Shown: positions 4,241 to 60,169 of the stretch, piece after piece
How positions within the stretch are numbered: the stretch's first letter is position 1
How the letters are laid out: every line of letters starts with the position of its first letter
Source of the DNA: Isoetes taiwanensis
Lineage: Eukaryota > Streptophyta > Lycopodiopsida > Isoetales > Isoetaceae
Direction of reading: 5' to 3'
Length of the DNA stretch: 64,000 nucleotides
NCBI GenBank assembly: GCA_021234155.1
Contig: JAJEKV010000033.1
Coordinates: 9,765,641-9,829,640 of the forward strand
Position numbers and translations under genes: made by a program
Notes under the pieces: generated by a model
The model's input: only the letters and a program-made list of their open reading frames with translations
Database searches by the model: none
Told to the model about the DNA's origin: nothing

Positions 4241-4890
4241 TGGTGTTCTTCACGGATCATCGAGGAGGAGGATGATCGGATGGGAGCCCCAGAAGTTACG
4301 ATACTTAGGGTTCTTGATGGAAGAAATTTCAAGAATCAAAATGGAAGAAAAACATGATTCTACTTAAACAAGAGGTGATTCATGCGGGGGGCCATTAAGA
4401 AGGCTGCTTAAAGAGGCGAGGCTATCACGGAGACACAATGGTTTAAAGCCTATGTTGAGGCTCTGTTTCACCCATGGCGACAAAGGAGGGAAGCTTAGGG
4501 TGCTTATGCTAATGGACTTCACCTCATATATTGTTAAGGAGTTGGACGAAATGCTCAGTGTGTTTGGCAACTCCAGAGTCTCTGACTTATCTCTGCAGGA
4601 TCTGATCGAAGCAAACAGCTAAAAGTCAGGCATAGCACTTAGCTATTCCAGGAATAGCAATGCTTTTTTGGATGTTTCTGTGTGATTGGTTAAATTTTCA
4701 TGCTACATTATGAACACAGGAATTGGCAACCTGTATATGCCCTATGTAGTTCTCTTAAAGCAGGTTGTACCTCCATATATGGAGGACTTACTTTTTATTA
4801 ATAGGTCTCCTCTGGAGTCCTATTACATTTTGATGTATCTTAACTAAACTATGAATAAAAAAACCCACCTTGCCTTCAAAAAAAAAAAAA
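3128..4890 (+). mobile_element. 5'-truncated L1-type LINE with poly(A) tail
   Basis: The fragment keeps only the C-terminal part of a reverse-transcriptase ORF, a 3' UTR of roughly 650 bp and a terminal A run (about 4878-4890) just after a ttgccttc motif. This is the usual outcome of incomplete target-primed reverse transcription. The A run touches the first base of the macrosatellite array at 4891, so the element marks the left edge of that array. I could not identify a convincing target-site duplication. The 5' boundary near 3130 is approximate. Confidence 0.75.
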
Positions 4891-7800
4891 CCCTCAAATC
4901 GTTTCGGACTTCCATCCTTGATATTCATTTGGAAATACCAAGTTACGCCTTTGGCGACCCTAGAAAATTGGCGGGGAACAATTTTCTAGGCGGGGGATAA
5001 GGACAAAATACTAGACAATTATAAATGTACCATATTTTTCCAATAGAAAATCCTATATTCCAAGTACAACATCAATACAATAGTTTCTTTGTGAATACTA
5101 TAAGTATTTCCAAATTGTATAATTTTTACTCATCCCAATCAAGCTTACAATCTTAAAACAATAATTCTGAGTTCAAAATATGTCCCTTGATTTCCCAATG
5201 GAAATATCTTACTTGAAGTCTTGTTTTTGAACCATCGACTTAGAGCGATAGATACATCAAAGCATGGAGCAAGAAACACGGTTACTGCTAAAGAGAACCA
5301 AAGGACGGTTAGCCTTAATCGGGGTAAGAGCCTAAGCTACTAACAGTGTGATAGGATTTTCTTGGGTATTCCCCTTCACCATGACTTTAATGGTACTAGT
5401 GTCGATATGTAAACATTGAGCAAAACTCAGTTTCAGGGACTTATAATACGGCATAATGGCATACGGTCATAATTACCCAGCAGATTCTGCCTAGCATATA
5501 GTCATAACTATCCAGCATATAGTCAGACGGTACTCCCTTACCTTGGAGTCATATCTGAAGCCCAACTAATCATTAAAATTTACTGTACACATACATCATT
5601 AGTGCAGCAAGTGAAGTGCAATTCGTAACTTCTTATGCAATTGTATCAGCATAAACATCATTGTATACTCTGCTATCACAGACCTGTTATTTTAAATTTT
5701 CAACAGCAAATGCATTATCTATCCAGCAATAGATTATATCCTGCCCATAGGATCCAGCAAATTCCAGCAGTAGATCTATCCATAGATCTGAGTACCAGCA
5801 CCAGACATAACATATTTAAAGCAGCAAACAGCACCAAATGGTGTATTTTCCTAATCTACCATTTTCTTCTATCTAAAGCATCTTATATCATGTATATTGT
5901 AGTGGATTTACTCCATTACTGCCTTAATATTAGTTGTGACGGTTCATTTTAGCACCATTATTTGTAGTCTCCATCCTCAAAGGCTCATGCCCCTTTCATA
6001 TTCATGTAAGCACCAGATCTAGCATTTTATCTATAATTTCTTCAAACATGAAACCATACAAGTCCCTTTATTCTATCTTTCCATCTATTGCATTTAAGCA
6101 ATCTACATAATCTCTATGATTCTACTTAGCACCTGCCCAGCAATATTTTTCATATCTTAGCATTCTACGTACAAAATTCTGCATGAATGCAAATAGGTTA
6201 GCATTAACACGAATGATATTAAGCTCGAGGAGGGCAATCCCTTGAGTTGTTTTCTTCTTTGCTATATATTTGCGGAATCGTCCTTTGTGTGACCACCATT
6301 GTCGCCAAGGATATCTTCATTTTCCTTGAACTTGGCTAGAAGCTCTTATTTCTCGCTATAGCTATGCTACCTTCTACATTCTCATCATTCCCAACCGCTA
6401 CCTTAGAAATTTCTAGCTCTTCAACCTGATTTAACTTGTTTCATAGCCTTAGGAATGCCCAACTCTTAGCATCTATCCTGTAGGGGCGGAATCGATTATC
6501 AAGCGGATGCCCCATCGCCACATTTTATTACGCCTCCCCGTCCTTAGCAAGGATTTACCACCAGCGGTGGGTGTACCTAGGTATCCGTAAATATTATCCA
6601 AAGTTTCAAATACCATTATCTTTTTTCTTTTCCGGCTACTTCTCTTGCCGGGCGTGCTTCTCCATCTTCTCTAATGTATGTATCGGTAGGAACCCTAAGT
6701 TACGGATATTGAACCTAAAAAGTGAAACAATCCGTAGCCACAAGTGTTTATTTTTGTTTTCATGTGCCTTGGTTATTCAAGTTCATGCAAACGTGCATAT
6801 AATAACCACATGCAAAATAATAACCCCATGCAAAAACTTTTTGTTCAAGCATGTGACAAGTGCCTTGCATGCACCCAAAGGTTGCATGCATTTGCAATAC
6901 AATGTTTCAACGTAAAAATAAGGCTATGTTTTAAAAAAACTATTATTTGCACGACAAACTTTGTACTCATGCCCAAGCCCAAACCTTTGGGCAAGGAGAC
7001 CTTGTACATGCCAACATGCAATATTTGCCCTTACAATGTATACAAGTAAACACTAGGCATAAGATCTTGAATACCAACAGGCCTTCCAAGTATTATCTAG
7101 GTTATCCATCCATGGTTCGTTTGAGAAACAATACTCCTCAAATGCGCATATATCAGTATATTTATAATAAAAAATCCTTCCTCCAACGGATTTGTTGTTG
7201 GTGGGGCTATTGCTAGTTTTACTTACAAAACATTTAACAGCAATATATACAACAAGGAGTGCAGGGCCTTGCTGTACGCATAGGCCCTGCCCTCACAATG
7301 CCTTTAACTGCTTTTTGCATTCCTGCACTTTATTGTTACACGTCTTCTTAAGAACTCCAACAGTTATGCCATAATCTTTAAGTTACGCACCCTATCTTCC
7401 ATGATTATACAATAATCAAGAGGATTGTTCCTTGTTCAAGTATCTTAGGACAATTTTGTATATTTCTTTTCTGCCAAAGCATTTTTCTGCATATGGTATT
7501 TTTCTTTCCTAGCAGTATGTTCAGTGTCAGTCATCTTTTTCATGCATACTCCAATCTGGAGCATGATTTAACTCTTGGCAAATGCCTCAAGAAACCTTGC
7601 TTTCTAGATCCACAATGATACCTTGAATGCTAAAGCCACAAAATGGGATATGTTTTAATCCTCTTGGCAAATGCCTTTCTAGTTATGTATTGTGGAAATT
7701 CCCAGATCCGTTGCTCTATTTTGTCTAATTGTTGGCTCCACATATTGTTCCAGTTTGGATTTACGTGATATGCTTTAAGCAAATAGCATCAAGCCTTTGT

Positions 7801-8210
7801 GGATATAATTATGTTCATCTTTCCTGGCATCATCCTACAATCATAAGCAAATGCATTAGAATAAGTTTTTTTGTAATAAATACCCAAACCCTGGTTTCTA
7901 GTAGAATTTACGCCCATGGCAAAAGTCAAAATCAGGGATATGATTTAACCATATGGCAAATGCCAAAACGGGCGTGATTTATCTCATTGGCGAATGCCTT
8001 TCTTAGTTATGCTGACCACATGATAAGATGACTTATCTGACCAGATTTGGGCTGCCACTAACATGTCCATGTTATTTGAAATATACCCGTTCCTCCATCT
8101 ATTTTTTCATCCTATAAACATAGGCAAATGCATTAGAATAAGTTTTTCCTGTAATATTTGCCCAAACCTGGTTTCTAGTATAACTAGAAAACTGAATTTA
8201 ACTAAAAAAA
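4891..8210. repeat. Macrosatellite unit A (~3.32 kb)
   Basis: This is the first unit of a head-to-tail array, defined from the ccctcaaatc anchor at 4891 to the same anchor at 8211. It aligns through its whole length to units B and C, with uninterrupted identical stretches often over 100 bp. It has no long open frame and no rRNA, tRNA or transposase signature. A perfect 9-bp stem with a 12-nt loop (gcagggcct/aggccctgc) lies at 7261-7290. A ggcaaatgc word recurs several times between about 7570 and 8130. Function unknown. Confidence 0.9.
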
Positions 8211-11200
8211 CCCTCAAATCTGTTTCCAGACTTCCATCCTTGATATTCCATTTGGAAATACCAAGTTCTGCCTTTAGTGACCCTAGAAAAAATTGACAAG
8301 AACAATTTTTCTAGGCCGTGATAAGGACAAAATACTAGACAATTGTAAATGTACCATATTTTTCCAATAGAAAATCCTATATTCCAAGTACAACATCAAT
8401 ACAATAGTTTCTTTGTGAATACTATAAGTATTTCCAAATTGTATAATTTTTACTCATCCCAATCAAGCTTACAATCTTAAAACAATAATTCTGAGTTCAA
8501 AATATGTCCCTTGATTTCCCAATGGAAATATCTTACTTGAAGTCTTGTTTTTTGAACCATCAGCTTTGAACGATAGATACATCAAAGCATGGAGCAAGAA
8601 AACCGGGTTACCTGATAGTAGAACCAAAGGACAGTTAGCCTTAATCGAGTAAGAGCCTAAGCTACTAGCAATAAGCGATAGATTTCTTGGGTATTCCCCT
8701 TCACCATGACTTTAATGGTACTAGTGTCAGTATGTAAACATTGAGCAAAACTCAGATTTCCAGGACTTATGTACAGCATAATAGCATACGGTCATAATTA
8801 CCCAGCAGATTCTGCCTAGCATATAGTCATAACTATCCAGCATATAGTCAGACGGTACTCCCTTACCTTGGAGTCATATCTGAAGATCACAGACCTGTTA
8901 TTTTAAATTTTCAACAGCAAATGCATTATCTATCCAGCAATAGATTATATCCTGCCCATAGGATCCAGCAAATTCCAGCAGTAGATCTATCCATAGATCT
9001 GAGTACCAGCACCAGACATAACATATTTAAAGCGACAAAGCGACCAAATGGTGTATTTTCCTAATCTACCATTTTCTTCTATCTAAAGCATCTTATATCA
9101 TGTATATTGTAGTGGATTTACTCCATTACTGCCTTAATATTAGTTGTGACGGTTCATTTTAGCACCATTATTTGTAGTCTCCATCCTCAAAGGCTCATGC
9201 CCCTTTCATATTCATGTAAGCACCAGATCTAGCATTTTATCTATAATTTCTTCAAACATGAAACCATACAAGTCCCTTTATTCTATCTTTCCATCTATTG
9301 CATTTAAGCAATCTACATAATCTCTATGATTCTACTTAGCACACCCCAAAGAATATTTTTCATATCTTAGCATTCTACTGCGTACAAAATTGCGCATGAA
9401 TGCAAATAGGTTAGCATTAACCTGAATGATATTCGCCTCCAGAGGGCAATCCCTTGAGTTGTTTTTCTTCTTTGCTATATTTGCAGAATCGTCCTTTGTG
9501 TGACCACCATTGTCGCAAGGATATCTTCATTTTCCTTGAACTTGGCTAGAAGCTCTTATTTCTCGCTATAGCTATGCTACCTTCTACATTCTCATCATTC
9601 CCAACCGCTACCTTAGAAATTTCTAGCTCTTCAACTGATTTAATAAGGTGTTTCATAGCCTTAGGAATGCCCAACTCTTAGCATCTATCCCAGGGGCGGA
9701 ATGCGATTATCAAAGCGGATGCCCCATCGCCACATTTTATTACGCCTCCCCTGTCCTTAGCAAGGATTTACCACCGGTGGGTGGTACCTAGGTATCTCGT
9801 AAATATTATCCAAAGTTTCAAATACCATTATCTTTTTTTTTTCCGGCTACTTCTCTTGCTTGAGAAGCGTGCTTCTCCATCTTCTACACTTGTATGTATC
9901 GGTAGGAACCCTAAGTTTCTGATATCCAGGAACCCTAAAAGTGAAACAATCCAGTAGCCACAAGTGTTTATTTTTGTTTTCATGTGCCTTGGTTATTCAA
10001 GTTCATGCAAACGTGCATATAATAACCACATGCAAATAATAACCCCATGCAAAAACTTTTTTGTTCAAGCATGTGACAAGTGCCTTGCATGCACCCAAAG
10101 GTTGCATGCATTTGCAATACAATGTTTCAACGTAAAAATAAGGCTATGTTTTAAAAAAACTATTATTTGCACGACAAAAAGCCCAAACCTTTGGGCAAGG
10201 AGACCTTGTACATGCCAACATGCAATATTTGCCCTTACAATGTATACAAGTAAACACTAGGCATAAGATCTTGAATACCAATAGGCCTTCCAAGTATTAT
10301 CTAGGTTATCCATCCATGGTTTGTTTGAGAAACAATACTCCTCAAATGCGCATATATCAGTATATTTATAATAAAAAATCCTTCCTCCAACCGTTGTTCG
10401 GGTGGGGCTATTGCTAGTTTTACTTACAAAACATTTAACAGCAATATATACAACAAGGAGTGCAGGGCCTTGCTATACGCATAGGCCCTGCCCTCACAAT
10501 GCCTTTAACTGCTTTTTGCATTCCTGCACTTTATTGTTACACGTCTTCTTAAGAACTCCAACAGTTATGCCATAATCTTTAAGTTACGCACCCTATCTTC
10601 CATGATTATACAATAATCAAGAGGATTGTTCCTTGTTCAAGTATCTTAGGACAATTCTGTATATTTCTTTTCTGCCAAAGCATTTTTCTGCATATGGTCT
10701 TTTTCTTTCCTAGCAGTATGTTCAGTGTCAGTCATCTTTTTCATGCATACTCCAATCTGGAGCATGATTTAACTCTTGGCAAAGGCCTCAAGAAACCTTG
10801 CTTTCTAGATCCACAATGATACCTTGAATGCTAAAGCCACAAAATGGGATATGTTTTAATCCTCTTGGCAAATGCCTTTCTAGTTATGTATTGTGGAAAT
10901 TCCCAGATCCGTTGCTCTATTTTGTCTAATTGTTGGCTCCACATATTGTTCCAGTTTGGATTTCTGCATATGCTTTAAGCAAATAGCATCAAGCCTTTGT
11001 GGATATAATTATGTTCATCTTTCCTGGCATCATCCTACAATCATAAGCAAATGCATTAGAATAAGTTTTTTTGTAATAAATACCCAAACCGGTTTCTAGT
11101 AGAATTTCGCCCATGGCAAAAGTCAAAATCGGGGATATGATTTAACCATATGGCAAATGCCAAAACGGAGCGTGATTTATCTCATTGGCGAATGCCTTTC

Positions 11201-11406
11201 TTAGTTATGTGCACCACATGATAAGATGACTTATCTGACCGATTTGGGCTGCCACTAACATGTCCATGTTATTTGAAATATACCCGTTCCTCCATCTATT
11301 TTTTCATCCTATAAACATATGCAAATGCATTAGAATAAGTTTTTCCTGTAATATTTGCCCAAAACACGGTTTCTAGTATAACTAGAAAACTGAATTTAAC
11401 TAAAAA
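8211..11406. repeat. Macrosatellite unit B (~3.20 kb)
   Basis: Second head-to-tail unit, bounded by the ccctcaaatc anchor at 8211 and 11407. It differs from unit A by a clean deletion of about 113 bp (unit A 5561-5673) and by many small changes clustered at CAG/CTG trinucleotides. The hairpin of unit A is conserved at 10462-10491 with one loop substitution. No gene is supported; the short open frames repeat those of the other units. Confidence 0.9.
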
Positions 11407-13660
11407 CCCTCAAATCTGTTTCGGACTTTCCATCCTTGATATTCCCATTTGGAAATACCAAAGTTCGCGCTTTTGGCGACCCTAGAAAATTGATGGGAAC
11501 AATTTTCTAGGCGGATAAGGACAAAATACTAGACAATTATAAATGTACCATATTTTTCCAATAGAAAATCCTATATTCCAAGTACAACATCAATACAATA
11601 GTTTCTTTGTGAATACTATAAGTATTTCCAAATTGTATAATTTTTACTCATCCCAATCAAGCTTACAATCTTAAAACAATAATTCTGAGTTCAAAATATG
11701 TCCCTTGATTTCCCAATGGAAATATCTTACTTGAAGTCTTGTTTTTTGAACCATCAGCTTAGAACGATAGATACATCAAAGCATGGAGCAAGAAACCTGG
11801 TTACCTGCAGTAGAACCAAAGGACAGTTAGCCTTAATCAGGGTAAGAGCCTAAGCTACTAACAGGTAAGCAGTAGGTTTCTTGGGTATTCCCCTTCACCA
11901 TGACTTTAATGGTACTAGTGTCAGTATGTAAACATTGAGCAAAACTCAGATTTCCAGGACTTATGTACAGCATAATAGCATACGGTCATAATTACCCAGC
12001 AGATTCTGCCTAGCATATAGTCATAACTATCCAAAGATATAGTCGAGAAAAGTACTCCCTTACCTTGGAGTCATATCCAAGCCCAACTAATCATTAAAAT
12101 TTCTGTACACATACATCATTAGTGCAGCAAGTGAAGTGCAATGTGAACTTCTTATGCAATTGTATCGGCATAAACATCATTGTATACTACGCGCTATCAC
12201 GGAGTTATTTTAAATTTTCAACAAGCAAATGCATTATCTATCCAAACAATAGATTATATCACGCCCATAGGATCCGGCAAATTCCAGCGATGAGATCTAT
12301 CCATAGATCGAGTACCCGACACCGGACATAACATATTTAAAGCAGCAAACAGCACCAAATGGTGTATTTTCCTAATCTACCATTTTCTTCTATCTAAAGC
12401 ATCTTATATCATGTATATTGTAGTGGATTTACTCCATTACTGCCTTAATATTAGTTGTGACGGTTCATTTTAGCACCATTATTTGTAGTCTCCATCCTCA
12501 AAGGCTCATGCCCCTTTCATATTCATGTAAGCACCAGATCTAGCATTTTATCTATAATTTCTTCAAACATGAAACCATACAAGTCCCTTTATTCTATCTT
12601 TCCATCTATTGCATTTAAGCAATCTACATAATCTCTATGATTCTACTTAGCACCTACCCAGCAATATTTTTCACATCTTAGCATTCTCGTTAAAATTCTG
12701 CATGAATGCAAATAGGTTAGCATTAACCTTGAATGATATTCGCCTCGAGAGGGCAATCCCTTGAGTTGTTTTGCTGCTGCTATATTTGCAGAATCGTCCT
12801 TTGTGTGACCACCATTGTCAGCAAGGATATCTTCATTTCCCTTGAACTTGTGCTACCTTCTACATTCTCATCATTCCCAACCGCTACCTTAGAAATTTCT
12901 AGCTCTTCAACTGATTTAACAGTGTTTCATAGCCTTAGGAATGCCCAACTCTTAGCATCTATCCCAGAGGGGCGGAATCGGTATCAAGCGGATGCCCCAT
13001 CGCCACATTTTATTACGCCTCCCTGTCCTTAGCAAGGATTTACCACACTGGTCGTGTACCTAGGTATCTGTAAATATTATCTAAAGTTTCAAATACCATT
13101 ATCTTTTTCTTTTCCAGCTACTTCTCTTGCCAGAGAAGCGTGCTTCTCCATCTTCTGCTTTGTATGTATCGGCCGGAACCCTAAGTTCTGGATATCCAGG
13201 AACCCTAAAAGTGAAACAATCCGTAGCCACAAGTGTTTATTTTTGTTTTCATGTGCCTTGGTTATTCAAGTTCATGCAAACGTGCATATAATAACCACAT
13301 GCAAATAATAACCCCATGCAAAAACTTTTTTGTTCAAGCATGTGACAAGTGCCTTGCATGCACCCAAAGGTTGCATGCATTTGCAATACAATGTTTCAAC
13401 GTAAAAATAAGGCTATGTTTTAAAAAAACTATTATTTGCACGACAAACTTTGTATTCATGCCCAAGCCCAAACCTTTGGGCAAGGAGACCTTGTACATGC
13501 CAACATGCAATATTTGCCCTTACAATGTATACAAGTAAACACTAGGCATAAGATCTTGAATACCAACAGGCCTTCCAAGTATTATCTAGGTTATCCATCC
13601 ATGGTTCGTTTGAGAAACAATACTCCTCAAATGCGCATATATCAGTATATTTATAATAAA
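11407..13660. repeat. Macrosatellite unit C, truncated (~2.25 kb)
   Basis: Third unit, collinear with units A and B until the sequence corresponding to about 7165 in unit A, where it breaks at an A run (13658-13672). At several diagnostic places in its first part (11760-11880) it reads what appears to be the ancestral CAG/CTG form, while in its middle (12160-12330) it is the unit with disrupted CAG/CTG sites. The A-run junction could mark a retroposition or repair event. Confidence 0.88.
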
Positions 13661-13674
13661 AAAAAAAAAAAAGA

Positions 13675-16602: not shown

Positions 16603-17418
16603 ATGTTGATTTTGACATCAAGCATGGATGGAATAAACAGAAATCAGCCCACTATGGAAGGACAAATGTATTTTGATGGTGCATTCTCTAAACTCAAGAA
16701 TTATGGAGGTGTAGGAGTATTTCTGATATATGGGCATAAAAAGAAGATTGTTACATTGAGTATGCCATGCACTGCAAGCAGTAATAATGAGGCTGAATAT
16801 CATGCACTTATTCAAGGGATGACTTTAGCAAAGAAGAAGCATGTTGATTGTTTAACTATTTTTGGAGATTTGGTGTGTCAACAACTTATGGATCAATTTC
16901 AGGTTTTAAGTGCTAATTTGAAAAGCTTACATCAACAAGCCATGGATTTGAAGGCGTATTTTCAGCAGTGCATTGTGGTACATGTTCCAAGAGAACAAAA
17001 CAGTGTGGCAGATGCTTTAGCACAATCGGCAATGGTGCAAGCAGCTTGGTGGCATGCGCACATTCTAGAGGATGAGGTAAATCAGATCAGTCCATGTTCA
17101 TCACAGTCATCACAGTCACCACATGCACCACATTCATCACATCCACCACATCCATTACAGTCACCACAGTCATCACACGCACCACATTCATCACACTCAC
17201 CACATTCACCACATTCATCACAGTCACCACATTCCGTCAAGAATATCAATATTTCTCAAGGAAATCAAGAAAAATTGGTTACTATTGGAGGCGATCTTAC
17301 TCAAGAGGAGGAACGTGATTTGATATCTTTGTTAAGAGAATTTAGAGATATTTTGGCAAGAGATTACAAAGAATTAAAGGCATTCCACCAGAGGTTGTGG
17401 TTCATATCATTGATTTGA
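16603..17418 (+). pseudogene. Additional RNase H domain (aRNH type) plus repetitive linker
   Basis: Residues ~20-150 form an RNase H of the plant/archaeal-like type. All four acidic positions are visible: Y-F-D-G-A, N-N-E-A-E-Y, F-G-D-L-V and V-A-D-A-L. It lies between protease and reverse transcriptase. In the Tat elements I know of, such an extra RNase H usually lies after the native one, so the position is noteworthy. It is followed by a Ser/His/Pro linker (about residues 165-207) encoded by a CAC/CAT-rich trinucleotide repeat. Near 17370 the frame shifts and the start of reverse transcriptase continues one frame over. Confidence 0.75.
17095..17232 (+). repeat. CAC/CAT/TCA trinucleotide repeat linker
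   Basis: About 140 bp of cac-cat-tca-cag triplets encode S/P/H-rich sequence in the gypsy frame and give Thr/Ile-rich or His-rich frames in the other two registers. Those other frames should not be annotated as proteins. The LTR heads carry a similar CAC-rich run (14117-14153), which hints at shared origin or parallel slippage. Confidence 0.8.
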
Positions 17419-49830: not shown

Positions 49831-50372
49831 ACCACAGAAGTCCTTTTGTAACTTATTGGTATAATATTCTAAATACATAATGCATGCTACAAAATATGTC
49901 ACGGGCTGATCTCCCAAAGATCCTGGAAGATCAGTCAAGAAGCCCAAGTTCTTTTTTTTTATGTTACTAAATGTGGGCAAACCAAAGTTAATGCAATTGG
50001 TTGGAACAAGGATAAGCAGACTAAGGAAAAAGCCTTACCCATGGATAAATAGTAAGTTGGGTCAGTTTTTTCTTCCGGTGTCACGTCACATTCGCCAAAC
50101 TTGTGACAGATTCTTGGTTACCTGTTCAACTGGTGAAGAAACAACCCAGCGTGACAGTGAGTAGGCTGCCGAAGTTCAGAAACTATGTGAGATTATTTTA
50201 CAAGCTGTGTTCAGAAGCTGTTTTTAGAAGCAATTACTTCAAGAAAAGCCGAGTCCGATCTGTATTTCATGCTTGCCATAGCCATGACCTTAGTTAGCCA
50301 TGATTTGTGCTCCATGCTTAGCCATAGGCGTGAATGTCAACAGAACAAAAAAACCTCCCAAACTATGATATT
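49831..50372. other. Upstream flank of the host gene, no feature seen
   Basis: Short open frames only. The region lies between a relic LINE and the structured element at 50373 and probably contains no coding sequence. Confidence 0.5.
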
Positions 50373-50441
50373 GCAGGGGTAAACCATCTGGTCCCGCGGG
50401 AATTTTGCTCCCGGCTATCGCCGGTCAGGAAAATCCCCTGC
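50373..50441. other. Compact multi-stem inverted-repeat element
   Basis: An outer 7-bp stem (gcagggg 50373-50379 with cccctgc 50435-50441) encloses two inner hairpins: the 10-bp palindrome tcccgcggga and ccggc-tatc-gccgg. The layout is a three-way junction of 69 nt. It is about 250 bp upstream of the host gene's first exon. It does not match a tRNA or hammerhead consensus. It could be a transposon end, a structured RNA or a protein-binding palindrome. Confidence 0.5.
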
Positions 50442-50577
50442 CAAAACCGGAAAAGGGTCCAAGATGGCTTACCCCTATACAACATACCAGAGCTTCATAA
50501 GTAACTTGAAGATCCTTAAGCACACCACTACAAACGGACTTGTTTAAAACAAAAAAACATGAGATAAAAAATGGAAC

Positions 50578-50590
50578 GCCACGTCATCAA
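50578..50590. promoter_or_regulatory. bZIP-type ACGTCA element upstream of the host gene
   Basis: The sequence gccacgtcatc combines a G-box half (CACGT) with the TGACG core on the opposite strand. This is a recognised plant bZIP binding form. It lies about 105 bp before the ATG at 50693, a normal promoter or 5' UTR distance. Function is inferred only from the motif. Confidence 0.35.
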
Positions 50591-50692
50591 AAAAAATATA
50601 TCGGGCAAAAAACATCCGTTTGTTCCTCGTTCCTAAAAAGAAAGGGTCTTTTGTTCCTGCGTATCTAAAGAGAGTCGTTTGAAGCGGCCGAC

Positions 50693-53600
50693 ATGCTTCC
50701 CCACCAGGGCTATTACGTCGCTGGCCCTTCGGTATGGTGGGGATACGGCAGTTCTGGAGTACCTTATCCTACAATGCCAGAGGTATGGCCATTTCTGCTT
50801 GTTTTAGGTTCTCTATGTTTAACGCAGAAACCAAAATGATGCGTTTGCTGAGATTCATATTAGTATCCCAGTAATTTGCACGAAGGAGAACGATTTCTTT
50901 GTCCTCGCTGCAAATTTGTTTAATTTCCCCTTTTTCGTGCCAGTTTGCTTCTACCTTGCCATTTTTACTGCACTCAGAACGTTTATAGTTATATAGACAG
51001 AGAATGGAAAATTAATTTTGAACAGTGCAAAAGAAAGTGCCATGTGTTGATGCTAAAGTTCATTTAGGGAAGCCCAGGAGGATGCATCCCTTTAGGCATA
51101 TAATGATCCAGAAGGCTTACGGGTACAAAGCCTATTTGACTATAGGAAATATGAATTAAGTTGCTGAAACATTAGCTTCGTGTCCTTGCCATGAGATTGT
51201 AGTACTGTCAACTTTAATTAATGAGTGAATGTAGTGGCATCCAAAATATGAATGTAGTGGCATCCAAAATCCCTCAACATCAGGCTCCTTGGAATTATGA
51301 TACTCCTAATGATGGCTTTATGAACAGCATAAGTTTCTGATTTGTTTATTAAGTGCATCAGAAGCTAAGTGGTATTTCGAAATAGAGTCCTATGAAAGGA
51401 TGAAGTGTTGCAACTTGAAGGGGCCTGGTTTACCTGCAGAGCTGTGATGGGAGCAGCGGAGATGAATGGTCGAAATATAGACTGGAATGTGCTACTGTAT
51501 ACAAAGTTTTACTGCACAGGAGTGATGCACATCATCAGGTTGATTGAGGCAAACATCAGTAATGAGTTAATATTTGAATTTAGTGGAAAATGCTGTAAAC
51601 CTCTCATGCCTCAGTGAAATAGAGAAAATACTCTGTTCGATATAGGAGAAGTGGCAAAAGATCAAGGGGTAATGATTCAGGCATATGACAATTATATTCT
51701 TACTGTGATGCCCAACTTTCGGATGTCTCAAAGAACTCAGGTTTTTCAGGCAAAATTTTGTCTCATATGCACGAAGAATTTTAACTAGTTATAGGTAATA
51801 TTTTGATACCAATTTGGACGCTTCTATTTTGTTTCCTCTTCTTTCCAAATGGGCATAAATTGAGGTACACACAGCATGGCTGGACTTACTACTTGATTTC
51901 TGTTCTGAAGCCCTTTGCTTTTATCACAATTAATTTATTAGTGCTTCAAAAGTTCATAAACTTTGTACTCATATATGAAGTGCAATGCTTCATCAGTTCA
52001 CATACTTACATGTGCTAGTTTCAGGGAAGTCAATGGATGCACACAACAAAGGAGCATGTGCTGAACGACCAACAGAAGGTTTTTGAAATTTGTGCCATTG
52101 CTTTTATTGTACAGGAGGTTACAGGTTGTTAGGCACAGAAAGAATTTGTGATTACTTGGAATGGTTAATTACAGGGAAACCAATCGGTCCAGCAGAAGAA
52201 AAGAAAATACATAAAGACAACCCCATCAAAGCAGTCTAACCCACATAATCAGCAGAATGTATGTTATTTCGTTTCTGTTCTTCAATTTTTTATCTGACTC
52301 CGTTCTTAAACTTGTACTAGCCAAATGATTAGATGTAAGTTATGAGACAAGAATTTGTTGGCAATCCCAATTTTTGCATGATGCACATTTATAGTAAACT
52401 TGTGAAGGATAGTATGTGCATCACGAGATAAAAGGAACAAAAAGTATAACAGAGATATCTTGTTTGATCTTGGTTTTAGGTAATAGTTACAGACATTGCC
52501 TGACACACAGTGGACCAATTACAGGGAAACCAATTGATGCATCCAAGGAAAGTAACTTACATACAAACTACATCAACAATGGAGCAACAAAAGGTATGTT
52601 TGTGGGGATGCTTTTTCTTTTTATGTCAGAAATACCAGTGCTATGATTGGTCATATGTAGCCTTTCTGCCGTATGTACCTTCCTGCATTTGTCTTAGCAT
52701 GAATTAGTGATTTGTCATACAGACCTATCTATGAAGCTCCAATATTTTCTCATACTTGATTACAGGGGAATCAACCGGTGCAACAGAACCAAATAAAGTA
52801 CATGCAAACAATGCCAACAAAGGATTATAATTTGAATGATCCGAAAAGAGTGAGCATATATAATCTGATAACTTGTCTTTGTTCCATTTCATGTTCTATT
52901 GGTCCATTGCTAGTAAAAGAATAGATATTGATTACACGGCAATCAATTGATGGAGCAGGGCAATGTAAGGTACATACATACTATGCCAGCAAAGCCATAT
53001 ACACCAACAGATCAGAAAAAGGTACACTAATACCTCAGGACATTAGCTCAATTTTCTTGTGAACTTTTTATATGACAAACATTAGAATGTTCACCGGTCA
53101 TATTTTTTTAATTACAGAGTAACCAAATGATGCTGCCCAAGCAGCATGTACAATCTATGCAGATCATGCCACCAAGGGAAGGTGCAGCAAATGAGAAGGT
53201 ACACCATGTATCTGTCATATTATGGATGAGCAATGGCCACAAGAAACTGCCTTGATTGAACACATTTCTTGTATCCTTTTTTTCAAATCGTGACATGAAT
53301 TTAAAGAGTTTTTTTGTTACAGGGAAATCAGTTGATGCAGAATCACATAAGACTGATGCAGACATTATTGCCAAAGGATCAAAAGGTGAACCTTGTTTAT
53401 ATTCTCACCTTTTGAACTTGATAACACTTACAACAATCATTGAGGAAGAGGTTCCATAATGAAACTATCAGAGATAGCCTAAACGTCATCAGCACTAAGG
53501 GACAGACGGCCATCAAACTTGTCTTAAACGATATATATATTTTTTCTTCTTTTAATTATTCATGAATATATTTCATAGAAGTTCGTAAGACCAGGATCAT

Positions 53601-55538
53601 AAACAAAGAACCCTCTTAAATTACAGGGTAATCAATTATTGCAGCAGAAGAAGAAAATAAGAGACAAAGAATTAAGGGACCATACCTTAAACCAAAAGGT
53701 TTGTTATCTGTTTGCTTCTACATGTTGGTGTCTAATTTGATACACAACCCGAAGGAATGAATTAGCTCTGCCATAAAACGAGGAAAACAAACATTATTCA
53801 TATGCATGTATAGACCCTGCACTGAGCTGTCATTCTAGTCCCTATTGTCTAGGGTGAATATATTAAAATTTTCCTTCTCGTATGTGACTGGAAGCAGAAG
53901 TCTACAGGAACGAAGGAGGATAACCCAAATAGTCAGCAAAAGGTGTGCTTGTATCTCATACTTAGCTAAAAGCTTTTTCAAATGCCATGTGCCCAGTAAA
54001 ACAGATTCTGATTTCAAATACAGGGGAATCAAATGGTGCAGCAGACTCAGTTGGAGACAATGGGGCCGAAGGAGGTGCCTTCGAAGGATAAAAAAAATGT
54101 ATGTCTTACACTGATAATGGAAACATAGCAGACTTAATTAGCATAAATTTGAGTATTCTGGAACCTTAATAATGAGGCTCAATTACAGCAGACTATCATT
54201 TTGGACTTAGTAGGACTTCTTTACAGGTCAATGAATTGACGAAGAAACTAGATACAGAAGCAGCACCCCTCCAGGAGAATGCTCTGAGTGAAACCCAGAA
54301 GGTATGGTCGGTCACATTTACTATGCTGACCTTTAAATGTCAACCGCGGTACACCCATAGGAAAAAGGGAAAAGAATTTCTTCTGGGCTTTGGAGCCTCA
54401 GAATGCCTGAGGAACTTAATCGTGATGTGTGATATTACTTATCGATTCTATATTACAGGAAAACCAACAGAACCGGAAAAGGAGTCTTGAAACTACAACA
54501 TCAAATGGAAATTCTGGTTTTAGCGTTGAATTTCCACATCAAATGGTATGTCTTAATTGAAATGGACTGGCTATATTTTTTCAATACCGAATGTAGCCTG
54601 TTTTTCAGGAAGCAAGAAGAGAGAAACGTGCAACATATGCCCGAAACTGGTATGCAAGGCTATCAGAGGAGAGAAAATCTGAATCAAGGAGGAAAAAAGC
54701 ATTATATGCCCGAGAATACAGAGCAAAAAGGTTGGGCCTATTTCCTGAGGGGGAAGAAGGAACCTTTGCAGAGCAACCTAGTGGAGTTGATGGCATGGCT
54801 TCAACTCCAGGAATGGGGAACACAGAGATGTTGAGAAGTGATGAAGAGGAAAGAAATGTTATTGATGGTAAAGCGGACAGAAACAGACATGCAAATGTTG
54901 CATTATCGCTAGAAAATGTAAGGGCCAGGTATTGTCAACGATGTTTTACAGAAATACTAGAAGAGCAGTCACAAGGGTATCAGACATGGCTCAGTATGCA
55001 ACAGCGATTGGCCATAATTAACCATGAAGGAAGTGCAGTACCTGCTAATACAATGGAGAATAGGGCAGGGAAAATAAACTATGCAGAAACTCCAGAACAG
55101 TTTTTTGCTTGTAATGCAGTTGTTGATGGTCGGCAGAGTATAAGGAATCAAGAGGCAAGTGCTGAAATAGCTAAGAACAACGAAAGAAAAAAGAAAAAGG
55201 CAAGAACGATGCATCTGGTTGAAATAGCTAAACAAAATGCAAGAGCAAAAGCCTGTCAAAAAGAGACTGAGCTTGCAAGAATAAAGGCAGAATCATGCAT
55301 CACAAAGACGGAAGCATGCATCACAAAGACGGAAGCAAAGACGGAAGCATGCATCACAAAGACAGAAGCATGTATCACAAAGGTGCAAGATAAATGCGTC
55401 AAAAAGACACAAGATAAATGCATCAAAAAGACGCAAGATAAATGCTTCACAAAGACATACACCACAAAATCGGAGATAGATGCAGGGCTTGCACTCATGC
55501 TTTTGAGTGAGGCATCTTTGAGACATTGTAATGACTAA
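50693..55538 (+). CDS. Candidate host gene with tandem phase-0 GNQ micro-exons
   Basis: Predicted exons: 50693-50782 (ATG; M-L-P-H-Q-G-Y-Y start, Gly/Tyr/Pro-rich), 51681-51740 (less sure), 52025-52078, 52175-52258, 52525-52593, 52766-52849, 52938-53021, 53118-53198, 53323-53385, 53627-53698, 53898-53942, 54024-54098, 54227-54301, 54459-54545 and 54609-55538. Every exon length is a multiple of three and every junction is phase 0. The frame stays open throughout, giving about 650 residues. Most micro-exons follow tta-CAG and begin G-N-Q-(L/M/P/S), often then Q-Q and later Q-T-M/T, and end in K before GT. One exon (52938) lacks an AG acceptor. The N-terminal two-thirds is therefore Gln/Asn/Lys-rich and probably disordered. 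The C-terminal exon is basic and helical, suggesting a nuclear or nucleic-acid-binding role, but I recognise no family. Further exons between 50783 and 51680 are possible (for example 51440-51496). Confidence 0.7.
54609..55538 (+). CDS. Terminal exon of the GNQ gene: basic region, coiled coil and short repeats
   Basis: The exon follows tttttcag and is open for 309 codons to TAA or TGA-type termination at 55538. It begins with an Arg/Lys/Tyr-rich basic region in which a Y-A-R-N-W-Y / Y-A-R-E-Y-R theme occurs twice (about residues 9-45), which could bind nucleic acid. An acidic patch follows, then a mixed region with C-Q-R-C. A Lys-rich helical stretch comes next (about residues 185-225). The tail consists of short tandem repeats: A-C-I-T-K-T-E (about four times) and D-K-C-(V/I/F)-K-K-T-Q (three times), giving regularly spaced cysteines. 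The last residues are an ordinary helix. No known DNA-binding family is matched with confidence. Confidence 0.75.
   Translation, partial: EARREKRATYARNWYARLSEERKSESRRKKALYAREYRAKRLGLFPEGEEGTFAEQPSGVDGMASTPGMGNTEMLRSDEEERNVIDGKADRNRHANVALSLENVRARYCQRCFTEILEEQSQGYQTWLSMQQRLAIINHEGSAVPANTMENRAGKINYAETPEQFFACNAVVDGRQSIRNQEASAEIAKNNERKKKKARTMHLVEIAKQNARAKACQKETELARIKAESCITKTEACITKTEAKTEACITKTEACITKVQDKCVKKTQDKCIKKTQDKCFTKTYTTKSEIDAGLALMLLSEASLRHCND
55296..55460 (+). repeat. In-frame short tandem repeats in the terminal exon
   Basis: A 21-bp-type unit (gcatgcatcacaaagacgga) is repeated about four times, then a 24-27-bp unit (caagataaatgc...aaaaagaca) three times. All changes preserve the reading frame, which supports selection for coding. 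The Cys-rich frames on the opposite strand are shadows of this repeat. Confidence 0.8.
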
Positions 55539-57632
55539 GAATTTGTTTTGTACATGTTAATTCTTATTATTTTTGTATCATAAGGCCTTCCTGCTCCTAT
55601 GGTGGCCAACAAGAGTCACGTTAATCCTTATAAATTAATCATGAGTTATCAGTCTTTACATTCGAAGGTGACAGTGATTCAATCGATAGCTTCCCTCATT
55701 CTGCTAATATTAATCCTGGATCTTGAGTTCCCAAGGATACAGGTTTTGACGTTGTAACAGTTGATGTTCAACAAAAGAATTGGTGCTGCTGCTGCATATG
55801 GCCTAAATTTATGCTGTCTCAAGATGGCAGATTCAATATATGCTATGACAACATTTCATAAATTCAAGGTACGATTTGACCTGAAAGTTCCACTGTACAT
55901 ATCTTTGCCTAAATGAAGACAAATTATTGAATGATTAGATTTTGCTGTGTCTTAAAACCAGAAGTGCGTATGAAAGGCAAATATGGAAGTCTTACCATTT
56001 TAGTTGGGCTTGCCCACCAATTAACACTTTTGTTGCTGCAGGATGATGGGGACAAATCCTACGATACAGTGTCTTCTTTTATAAGGATTTTGCCTACTGT
56101 CCTTTTGGATTTAAATTGGAAAAAACCCATTTAGAAAACCTCTTTAAAGCCCTTATGTTTAAGCTTATTCCACCAATGCATGAATGTTTACACTTTTCAC
56201 AAGATGCCCCTCTCTATGCAAGTACAATTTAGAGGCCCTTTATTCGGAGGTGGTCCCGTGATTTTGAAAAGCTTAAAACATGTGCATCTTTAGGAACCAA
56301 ATCTTAAGCGCATTTTATGGGTTCATCGTGAGGACGTTTCATTAGTTTGGGTAAGTAAATCTATATATCGACCGAATTTTTAAGCAACTTTAAGAATCAA
56401 AACTGTTGACTTATTGCAAGAAATTGATTTGTTATTGTCGGTAGAGACTTGGGCATGAAGCTAATATGTTAGCTTAAATGCTAGCTAGCAACAAGTAAAT
56501 TACAAACATAAGCTTTTGGACATGGAGGTGGAATACGATGTCAAGGTCCGTGATATTGAATTTCAGCGTGAGCACTTTACTATGCCATAGATCCATTGGC
56601 TTTCTTTTTGAGTAACAACATTTGGGTTCGTATTCCATTCGATATGTAACAACATTCAATTATAACTAGTTGCTAGATTTTGTCTAAATGAATGAAATAA
56701 CCAAAACTCTAACCTTGGTTAACTAATTTTTAGGGCATATTATCTCCTTCATTTGCTTAAAGAAACCTCTTATGGTAAGAGTGAGACCTTCAATCAACTA
56801 TATGTGGGTGATTTTTACATTGTCTCCTCTTATGGTAAGAGTGAGAGACCTTCAATCAATTGTGCATCTGTAGGTAATTTTAACATTGTCTCCATTGACA
56901 TCTTTTTTATTTTTTTGAAGTGGCTTTGGTTTCATGTGCCAAAAAAGCTTGTAAATGCTTTTTTGGAGTATTCTTGCAAATTTTGCACCGTCAGTTCAAA
57001 TTGCATTAATTCTTATTGTCCATTCTTCCTTGCATTTGGAGATGGTGGTCAACCACAATTGTCAAGGTTGAATCCTCCTATTTTCTTTTGCCATAAAGTC
57101 CTATTGAAGCTCCAAAAGACACGTTGAAGCTTTACGTATGTGGGCGAACCAAACTCCTTATAATCCCTATGACCACCTACACAGAATTGAGTGGCTTTGG
57201 CATTCCCCAAGGTGGCAATGAATATAAGACACTTTTATCACGCCAAATGTTTTAGAAGCGTTTACAACATTCAAACATGAGGCAGTGCACATGAAAAATT
57301 TGTGGATTTTAACATAAAAACGAAAGGAATGGCTATGGTTGCCTGATATCTTTGTACACTTCCCTAAACTTTCGAGCAGCTCCAATAAGAAGATCCTTTA
57401 CTCCAAGCATAAATGACCATACTGCATTGTAAAGCCCCTGTTACGTAGTCTAATGTCATATAGTCTTAAGCTAACAAGTAGTGCCTTATTCATTTTCCTA
57501 CCATTTGTCTTGTAAATGCTTTAGACATTCAATTCTAATGAATTTGAATTCGAGGAAGAGAGCACTAATATGCTTTTAACTGAAGAGATATTAGATGAAC
57601 TAGTTTATGATGCTGAATGTACATTTTGAAGG
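55539..57632. other. Non-coding DNA downstream of the host gene
   Basis: The first few hundred bases are AT-rich and probably include the 3' UTR. At 56766-56895 a ~64-bp unit beginning cctcttatggtaagagtgag is present twice in tandem. Weak LINE-like remnants may exist near 57100-57400 but are too decayed to support. No gene is seen. Confidence 0.5.
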
Positions 57633-57690
57633 TCTTCTAGACCCGATGGTCTCACATACGTAATAATAATATTTCATTTCATTTCCGTGT
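57633..57690 (+). mobile_element. LINE 3'-end fragment with stem-loop and TTTCA tail
   Basis: A very short LINE end, plus strand: agaccc-gatggtct forms the same AGACC/GGTCT stem as the larger elements. It is followed by tacgtaataataat and a tttcatttcatttcc tail. Only about 50 bp were copied, as happens in extreme 5' truncation. Confidence 0.45.
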
Positions 57691-57819
57691 CTTTAATATT
57701 CCTCCCCTCCTGTCCCTCCTTGCCTCCCTCCCAAAGGTCACAACCTTAATAATTAAGGTTGTGATCTACTAGACAAGAACTATCGCTCTTCTATAAGGAC
57801 AACCTAATGGAGATTTCTA

Positions 57820-58200
57820 CATCCTACAAGTACTTGGACCTTGTAGTAAAAAAAAAAACTTTTGATGGAATCGAACAGTAGAGCAGAGAGTCAATGGAGG
57901 GCTTGAAGCCTTTTTTGCCATGCAAAGAAAATGCCTCAAAGCCAACATATAGACATTCAACCAACATATGAGTTTGATGTTTGGGGGCATGCCTAAATTG
58001 TGACAGAAAATTGGGAAGGTTCATAAGAAATTTCTATACGCAGAATTTGGTGTCAGATGCAAACTCCATATGAAATGATGTTGACTGAATGCATCATGCT
58101 ACCCCTTGAATAATTACAAAAAAACTCGAGCTGCTCATTTAAGCTCTAAATGGCGTGGGAGATCGTAGCTGCAATTTGTTCCATCTTAAGAAAATTGCAA
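57820..58200 (+). pseudogene. Relic LINE thumb fragment
   Basis: Plus-strand frames read A-M-Q-R-K-C-L-K-A-N-I, then M-F-G-G-M-P-K-L, then F-L-Y-A-E-F-G-V-R-C. The last matches the relic LINE at 49255-49330 (F-L-I-S-E-F-G-I-K-I) in position and context. Stops and frameshifts are frequent. The minus-strand frame over this segment is a shadow. Confidence 0.5.
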
Positions 58201-60169
58201 GTGTGATTTTCATTGATAGATTCTATTATATCGATACAAGTTCTGCAATTAGGGTTTATGATTTCATGTTTAAGGGGATATGTCTCATGTATCATGTTCA
58301 ATTAGATAATTAAGCATAACACTAACAAAAACTGATACCAAGAGGTATCTAGAAACAACTGAAATATAATCTGGGAGCCTATACGAGCTAAAAACTAGGT
58401 AATTGACATAAACATGCCCTAAACAAGTTCTTGAGAAGAATGACAACATCTCCAACAAAGTTCACACAAGAATTAATCAGGCATTGAAAGCTTTCTAAAG
58501 AGATCTAAGTATAAAACAAGAAGCATTTGATGAGACTTGGACTCACTTCTGAATGGCTTCTTGAATGGAATAGTGCCCTCGGATTGCCTATAGACCTTAA
58601 TTTTGAAAGCAGTGGAGAGCTTGTCGTGATAATTGAATTGCGCCTTCTGAACCTTGTAGAGTGCCAAGAATCAAGGAAGGAGCACTTATGATAATCTGAG
58701 AAGCCCCTAGAAACAATGTGACGAGCGTCTGCTTGAACAATCTCTACAATCAGCAGGTGAAAATAACAAAATAAGAATGGACATTCAGATGCGATGTTCA
58801 AATTTTGCATGAAGCAAGTTTGAAAGTATGTCAGTGTCTCAACTACCTTGAGATTTGTCCAATACAATATTGCATGGGCAAATATTTGAATTTGGTTCAT
58901 GATGCCAAATTTAATTTTTGGGCGTATCACGTACTATCGCCCAAAACGGCCAACTTCTTTTTTTGGAAAGTCACTGAAAATCCCCTCCCCCCATCCCCCC
59001 CCTCTTTGGGCCGTATTTAAATATGCATAGTTTTTTATTGTCTTATGTTAGTACGTTTGCGCGGGCAGTTGTTTAGAGTTTCTTCCGCCTTCGTTCATAG
59101 TCGCAAAGATTGCAGGCGCGATGTTTGTAAGCTCAAACACTTGGCTTATAATAATATTGTTTTTCTACCCGTTGTATAGGAAGCCTGACAGACATAACAT
59201 CATCAAGTAATACAAAGGAACGAGAGGCAGACATAGGGTGGGAAGTGTTTGTTCTTGTACGACAGTGCGCCATAGAAAATATGAATCAGAGTTTAAATGC
59301 ACCCAGAGATCTGATGCACGTGGCGGATTCGAGATTTTTTCTCGTCTCAATATTTACGGAACCGTCAAGGAGACTGTAGGACAAGACGCATCTTCTCTTT
59401 AACATCTTATTAGCATGTTCCACAGTGGATCATCATCATTGACAAGGTATCCAACATATGTAGTGATGAATGTCAAATACTATCCAAACTATATCAAATT
59501 GACCTAACTACAGTTAAATTACCACAACTTATTTGCTATTTTTGCCGTCTTCCTAAGATGGTCTGTGTGGAGTTAATAACAACGACTGTTAACATTTTTT
59601 GGAGAAGTTAAGATAATGTCATGTTTTATATCGCTACTTCTCTGTTTTATTTTTTATTGTCTCTCCTTTTTATGATGCTTCCAAGGATCACCAATGCGAT
59701 CCTTAAAAAATGTGGCTTACTTGTTTTTATCATGTTAGATGTTAGATGCGTAATTTTGTGTATAGTGCTTGGAAGGATTGCATCTGCGATTTTCCCAAGG
59801 CTTTCCCAAGGCTTTATTACTCGTAATGTCCATATGAGTTGCCATTAATTTGGCTTAGATGAAGATGGGTCGACAACAAATGGAGAGGATGGAAATTGAA
59901 GCAGTTGTCGATCCCGATGCTAATCATGATGTTGTTAGGGAATCTTCTCCATAAAATGTCTTGTGTAATTTACTATATGTAACGTTCAAAGTGCAATACA
60001 AAATCATTTAACCTTGGATCACAATTTATGCTATGATTCTTAAGTATAGAATGCTTTCAACCATGCTTTGCTCACTGTATCACATATTTTGGTACTAAGC
60101 ATGCAACTTTGTTCAGTTTAGTCATTATTTGATTTTTTTTTGTTCAAAAAAGCCGCATTGATGATCTTC
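58201..60169. other. Non-coding DNA, no supported gene
   Basis: There are only short frames. A 7-bp inverted repeat (aaggatc/gatcctt) lies at 59683-59704, and cccaaggcttt is doubled near 59795-59815. The hydrophobic frame at 59621-59848 reflects T-rich DNA. I see no gene. Confidence 0.5.

Follow-up and report, generated by a model that had tools for sequence, protein, structure and literature searches.

The stretch of DNA analyzed here, a 64-kb window of the genome of the quillwort Isoetes taiwanensis, a lycophyte, to which all coordinates refer, contains a predicted plus-strand gene of 14 exons at 50693–55538, whose model we rebuilt base by base. Under this model all 13 introns (63–1242 nt) are in phase 0, the lengths of all 14 exons are divisible by three, exons 2 to 13 measure 45–87 bp each, and the frame stays open for 630 codons, which predicts a product of 630 residues (72 kDa, isoelectric point 9.5). 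A preliminary description of the locus had given the same exon coordinates, lengths, phase, and continuous frame, all of which were borne out by the rebuilding, as was a last exon of 309 residues, which ends at 55538; the product is shorter than the ∼650 residues then estimated. The exons and associated features are as follows, with bits referring to the matrix and profile scores discussed below.

50693–50782, + strand: exon 1, with the start codon (MLPHQGYYVAGPSVWWGYGSSGVPYPTMPE); donor GAG/GTATGG; identical in the C1050 copy
52025–52078, + strand: exon 2, diverged GSQ cassette, 54 bp; acceptor TTTCAG; 19.9 bits
52175–52258, + strand: exon 3, GNQ cassette, 84 bp; motif KKRK, resembling a nuclear localization signal (NLS)
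52525–52593, + strand: exon 4, GNQ cassette, 69 bp
52766–52849, + strand: exon 5, GNQ cassette, 84 bp; most similar to exon 3
52938–53021, + strand: exon 6, GNQ cassette, 84 bp; 3′ splice site TTACAC in both genomic copies
53118–53198, + strand: exon 7, SNQ cassette, 81 bp
53323–53385, + strand: exon 8, GNQ cassette, 63 bp
53627–53698, + strand: exon 9, GNQ cassette, 72 bp
53898–53942, + strand: exon 10, predicted, 45 bp, the least certain of the exons, lacking a cassette start (KSTGTKEDNPNSQQK); unchanged in the C1050 copy
54024–54098, + strand: exon 11, GNQ cassette, 75 bp; acceptor ATACAG
54227–54301, + strand: exon 12, VNE start, possible diverged cassette, 75 bp; 12.7 bits
54459–54545, + strand: exon 13, ENQ start, diverged cassette, 87 bp; 15.3 bits
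54609–55538, + strand: exon 14, 309 residues and stop; basic, predicted helical
54618–54734, + strand: basic module REKRATYARNWYARLSEERKSESRRKKALYAREYRAKRLG of the type found at Helitron RepHel N termini; profile match 27.6 bits
54834–55250 (core 54917–55250), + strand: stretch of exon 14 present, with stops, as copies within at least six Helitron-like elements
55283–55457, + strand: in-frame tandem repeats in exon 14, with 21-, 33-, and 24-bp units; CITKTEA and DKCxKKTQ
49862–59011, no strand assigned: segment duplicated on scaffold C1050, with the gene copy at ∼494.3–499.2 kb of C1050

The small exons share a recurring design, though less uniformly than the preliminary description had it. 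Its near-identical acceptors hold for 8 of the 12 exons from 2 to 13, which are preceded by TTACAG, and not for exon 11 (ATACAG), exon 2 (TTTCAG), exon 10 (AAGCAG), or exon 6, whose TTACAC lacks the AG. Likewise, the predominant Gly-Asn-Gln start is found in its proper form in 7 of the 12, with variants in exons 7 (SNQ), 2 (GSQ), 13 (ENQ), and 12 (VNE) and no cassette in exon 10, and the terminal lysine is present in eight and missing from the other four.

The array stands well clear of chance. A combined acceptor and exon-start pattern, TTACAGGGNAAYCARNNG (TTACAG plus GNQ), matched the 64 kb 11 times with at most two mismatches, every time on the plus strand and in order between 52019 and 54470; shuffled sequences averaged 0.61 matches and gave no more than 3. 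With a position-weight matrix (PWM) spanning 10 intron and 15 exon bases and a cut-off of 9 bits, the eight core cassettes scored 30.7–35.3 bits (23–30 when each was left out of the matrix in turn) and the diverged cassettes 19.9 (exon 2), 15.3 (exon 13), and 12.7 bits (exon 12), where the maximum across 20 simulated windows was 13.5 bits; exon 12, falling below that maximum, is therefore not secure by the matrix alone. Exon 10 (KSTGTKED...) has no resemblance to a cassette and scored −23 bits. Two dead cassettes that we had suspected by eye in intron 1, near 51068 and 51650, fell under the cut-off. Among the cassettes, the entropy of the GNQ codons rises from 0.16 bits at the first codon position and 0.31 at the second to 1.07 at the third, and this third-position variation indicates that the cassettes have been kept alike as protein. 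A search of the 1.66-Gb assembly with a hand-made, consensus-like cassette peptide and the DNA pattern found no cassette beyond the two loci of this gene among the best candidates scored, a search that a diverged array could escape.

Exon 6 is unusual in that TTACAC precedes it in both genomic copies. An in-frame AG lies 21 nt inside the exon and would allow a start at 52959, leaving 63 nt. Because the acceptor lacks an AG, exon 6 is probably either skipped as a whole (84 nt, in frame) or begun 21 nt later, again in frame.

Alignment of the exons and introns bears on how the array arose. Exon–exon alignments reached z > 3 in 13 of 78 pairs, and intron–intron alignments, with the introns trimmed by 8 nt on the donor side and 20 nt on the acceptor side, in 0 of 78; the only intron sequence common to the cassettes is the final ∼8 nt (ATTACAG). 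Since the exons align and the introns do not, duplication can be demonstrated solely for the exon together with its 3′ splice site. Thus, of the exon-plus-intron tandem duplication that had been proposed, the part that stands is the exon with the terminal ∼8 nt of the preceding intron, while the introns themselves cannot be aligned; whole introns may have been duplicated as well, and the duplications are old. The closest pair is exons 3 and 5 (z = 9.1), followed by 5–6 and 4–6, and a two-exon block duplication (3–4 to 5–6) is possible. The same gene shows a second mode of expansion, the in-frame tandem repeats of exon 14 (window 55283–55457; 21, 33, and 24 bp). These repeats, together with the lack of resemblance among the introns, would suit a different history, in which a single large exon with an older in-frame tandem repeat repeatedly gained introns at one site of that repeat. 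However, the introns all interrupt the repeat at one position and in phase 0, and they have their final ∼8 bases in common, which is more simply explained by exon duplication with old, diverged introns; we regard serial intron insertion as quite improbable. Collectively, these data support the origin of the array of symmetric phase-0 exons by repeated exon duplication.

A second copy of the gene lies on scaffold C1050, in a segment that matches window positions 49862–59011. It retains all 14 exons, with identical bases at the splice sites. The copies differ at 11 of 1,893 coding positions (5 nonsynonymous and 6 synonymous changes), giving a nonsynonymous divergence (dN) of 0.0033, a synonymous divergence (dS) of 0.016, and dN/dS of ∼0.2 (one-sided binomial P = 0.024). 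The exons contain no insertions or deletions between the copies, and the introns, at 0.87% divergence, contain several. On these few changes, the comparison argues for a gene under selection, and two full copies with intact exons agree with the host gene envisaged in the preliminary description. We considered whether the C1050 copy might be an unpurged allele and rejected this: the flanks outside 49862 and 59011 are unrelated, which makes a segmental duplication of ∼9 kb the likelier explanation. Gene pairs of low Ks (synonymous divergence) that lie on separate scaffolds are reported in the I. taiwanensis genome paper as possible products of recent segmental duplication (PMC8566536). The C1050 segment is itself split by a 4.6-kb insertion (∼501.2–505.8 kb) that entered after the segmental duplication; it is PIF/Harbinger-like, with terminal inverted repeats of 30 bp and a duplicated TTA target site.

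The middle region of the predicted product is of low complexity and rich in Gln (15%), Asn (10%), and Lys (12%), in keeping with the Gln-rich disordered region expected from the preliminary description. NLS-like motifs are found in exon 3 (KKRK) and exon 14 (KKKK), and no hydrophobic signal-like core was seen by eye at the N terminus, MLPHQGYYVAGPSVWWGYG. Pfam searches with exon 14, the spliced product, exons 1–2, and the basic module returned noise only, namely hits to Cornifin at E = 0.021 and to VioE at E = 0.088, neither of which reached its curated cut-off. Sequence searches of the Protein Data Bank (PDB) gave no match for exon 14 and only E = 1.5 for the basic module. An AlphaFold2 model of exon 14, made without an alignment, contains four helices with a mean predicted local distance difference test score of 67 and a predicted template modeling score of 0.27, the latter making it too weak for a fold search. 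We picture the product as a basic nuclear protein with a short N terminus rich in Tyr, Trp, Gly, and Pro, a Gln/Asn/Lys-rich spacer, and a helical C-terminal part. The cassettes (∼54–87 bp, with the G-N-Q start) would have been duplicated each with its own 3′ splice site and would form a flexible spacer of ∼290 residues. Because they are symmetric and in phase 0, their number can vary without a frameshift; they would thus set the length of the spacer, and skipping of a single cassette, possible for every one, would shorten it in frame. Exon 6, given its acceptor, would be the first candidate for such skipping. The C-terminal part would open with the Helitron-type basic module, a likely binder of nucleic acid or protein.

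This module connects the gene to Helitrons. Residues 4–42 of exon 14 scored 27.6 bits against a profile of the Helitron module, where the best of 2,000 composition-preserving shuffles scored 14.3. The basic WY module recurs in the N termini of RepHel proteins in the I. taiwanensis genome, with pairwise E values down to 4e-9 over 66 residues. Helitron_like_N (PF14214) was present in three of the four long open frames scanned with the module in view, that is, frames bearing or adjoining it; two further module frames were either cut in the fetched stretch or without a Pfam match. Beyond the module, exon 14 does not match the RepHel N termini compared, and a Pfam search located neither Helitron_like_N nor a Rep or helicase domain in exon 14 or the spliced product.

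A second connection runs through copies of exon 14. At least six loci, on C1087, C1045, C1044, C1018, C1096, and C935, hold the stop-containing stretch from 54834 or 54917 to 55250 at 78–93% identity, within element copies that lie in A-rich flanks. The capturing elements begin with CTAGCAG, and their 3′ terminus, GGGTTAGGCAACCCTGCTAA, consists of a GGGTT-AACCC hairpin and then CTAA. Exact matches to the 20 bases of this terminus number 707 genome-wide, compared with 0 for a reversed control. Judged by these ends, the copies are gene fragments captured by a high-copy Helitron-like family, a process known from other plants (for example, PMC2575219). Direct repeats of 160 bp at the C935 locus had raised the idea that the exon 14 pieces reside in long terminal repeat elements, which we dropped in favor of the Helitron-like hairpin and CTAA ends. 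That the gene itself sits inside this family was also rejected, its ends being absent from the window. Separately, exon 1 and part of intron 1 have been captured on C13 (∼45.9–46.6 kb, minus strand, 89% identical) next to what by eye appears to be receptor-kinase sequence, forming a chimeric captured segment.

Tandem duplication of symmetric exons is an established process. To our knowledge the array is nevertheless unusually long for a plant gene, and we know of no name for the family. The earlier impression that no named family has such a layout therefore holds for the protein as a whole, which has no Pfam or PDB match, but not for duplicated symmetric exons as such. In grasses, CENP-C genes have undergone in-frame exon duplication in their fast-evolving middle region (Talbert et al. 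2004, PMC549713). There the units are exon pairs in few copies, whereas the quillwort gene has about eleven single-exon cassettes; no homology is claimed, and no CENP-C motif was recognized, none having been searched for. Schistosoma micro-exon genes (MEGs) join many small exons of 6–81 bp, mostly multiples of three, to longer exons (PMC10526429). Both MEGs and the quillwort gene thus combine small multiple-of-three exons with longer ones such that skipping keeps the frame. In contrast, MEGs encode secreted proteins and have long introns, from 100 to nearly 5000 bp, and the quillwort gene has short introns and a basic product with NLS-like motifs. MEGs are further marked by a signal peptide, a secreted product, and occurrence in trematodes, and the present gene, in a plant and with no signal-like core visible by eye, falls outside that class. 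The design is the same, and again no homology is claimed. With Helitron RepHel proteins the product has in common the basic WY module (exon 14 residues 4–42) and not the Helitron_like_N, Rep, and helicase domains.

We consider it probable, with appreciable doubt, that the locus is a lineage-restricted host gene for a nuclear protein, present in two recent copies, the middle of which was extended by symmetric exon duplication. The sequence itself displays exon homology, symmetric phases, the open frame, third-position variation, the second intact copy, the lost acceptor of exon 6, and the similarity of the module; the last three, and the non-cassette character of exon 10, are absent from the preliminary description. 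Transcription, splicing as modeled, nuclear location, binding to DNA or protein, splice variants, and the direction of the Helitron relationship go beyond it and are inferred. Several points weigh against it. Transcription and splicing are predicted from the sequence alone, and the exon 6 acceptor without AG, together with the seemingly unrelated exon 10, makes part of the model uncertain. The absence of stops from the 321 codons of exons 1–13 (18 and 15 in the other two frames) overstates the case because the exons were partly picked for openness. The dN/dS test is based on just 11 changes, the evidence for conservation comes from one recent duplication inside one genome, and the surroundings are rich in transposons.

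These surroundings, the TTACAC of exon 6 in both copies, and the stop-bearing fragments of the gene scattered in Helitron-like and other settings could instead point to a nonfunctional, decaying remnant of an old or transposon-assembled gene, with the loss of the exon 6 acceptor as a first sign and C1050 merely a segmental duplicate. However, all 14 exons are intact in both copies, without exon insertions or deletions and with dN/dS of ∼0.2, and the cassettes vary at third positions; a remnant is, in our judgment, unlikely. Somewhat stronger, yet still well short of probable, is the idea of a domesticated Helitron product, in which exon 14 derives from a RepHel N terminus that acquired the cassettes and the protein continues to act on Helitron DNA. 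The match of residues 4–42 to the RepHel module and the adjoining Helitron_like_N in three of the four frames speak for it, but the match covers only ∼40–66 of 309 residues, the rest of exon 14 is without a match to the RepHel N termini compared, and Helitrons may instead have acquired the module from their hosts. More speculative, and in our view very unlikely, is a nuclear protein of a lineage-specific plant gene in which a Helitron-derived basic module is combined with about eleven symmetric cassette exons spliced in many combinations, creating a tunable Gln/Asn-rich spacer and perhaps acting on Helitrons or chromatin.

Other features were noted in passing. In the window, direct repeats of ∼3.3 kb, 92–95% identical, are arranged in tandem at 4884–13663, and a 9-bp minisatellite (TTCACCACA) at 17097–17234 lies in frame within the open frame of an RNase H-bearing retroelement, encoding a Ser/Pro/His-rich linker. 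On C1052, an rbcL copy has a Thr codon where the start Met is expected, compatible with RNA editing. C840 is a second, very AT-rich plastid rbcL-atpB contig that is unlike the C1052 rbcL, has a bryophyte-like look, and may be a contaminant.

If transcribed as modeled, the host gene would provide a compact plant example of a disordered region that grows and shrinks by whole symmetric exons, and its duplicate copy, along with the several species of Isoetes, allows cassette number and splicing to be compared. It also ties the evolution of a host gene to Helitrons in two ways, through the module in its last exon and through the repeated copying of exon 14 by Helitron-like elements.

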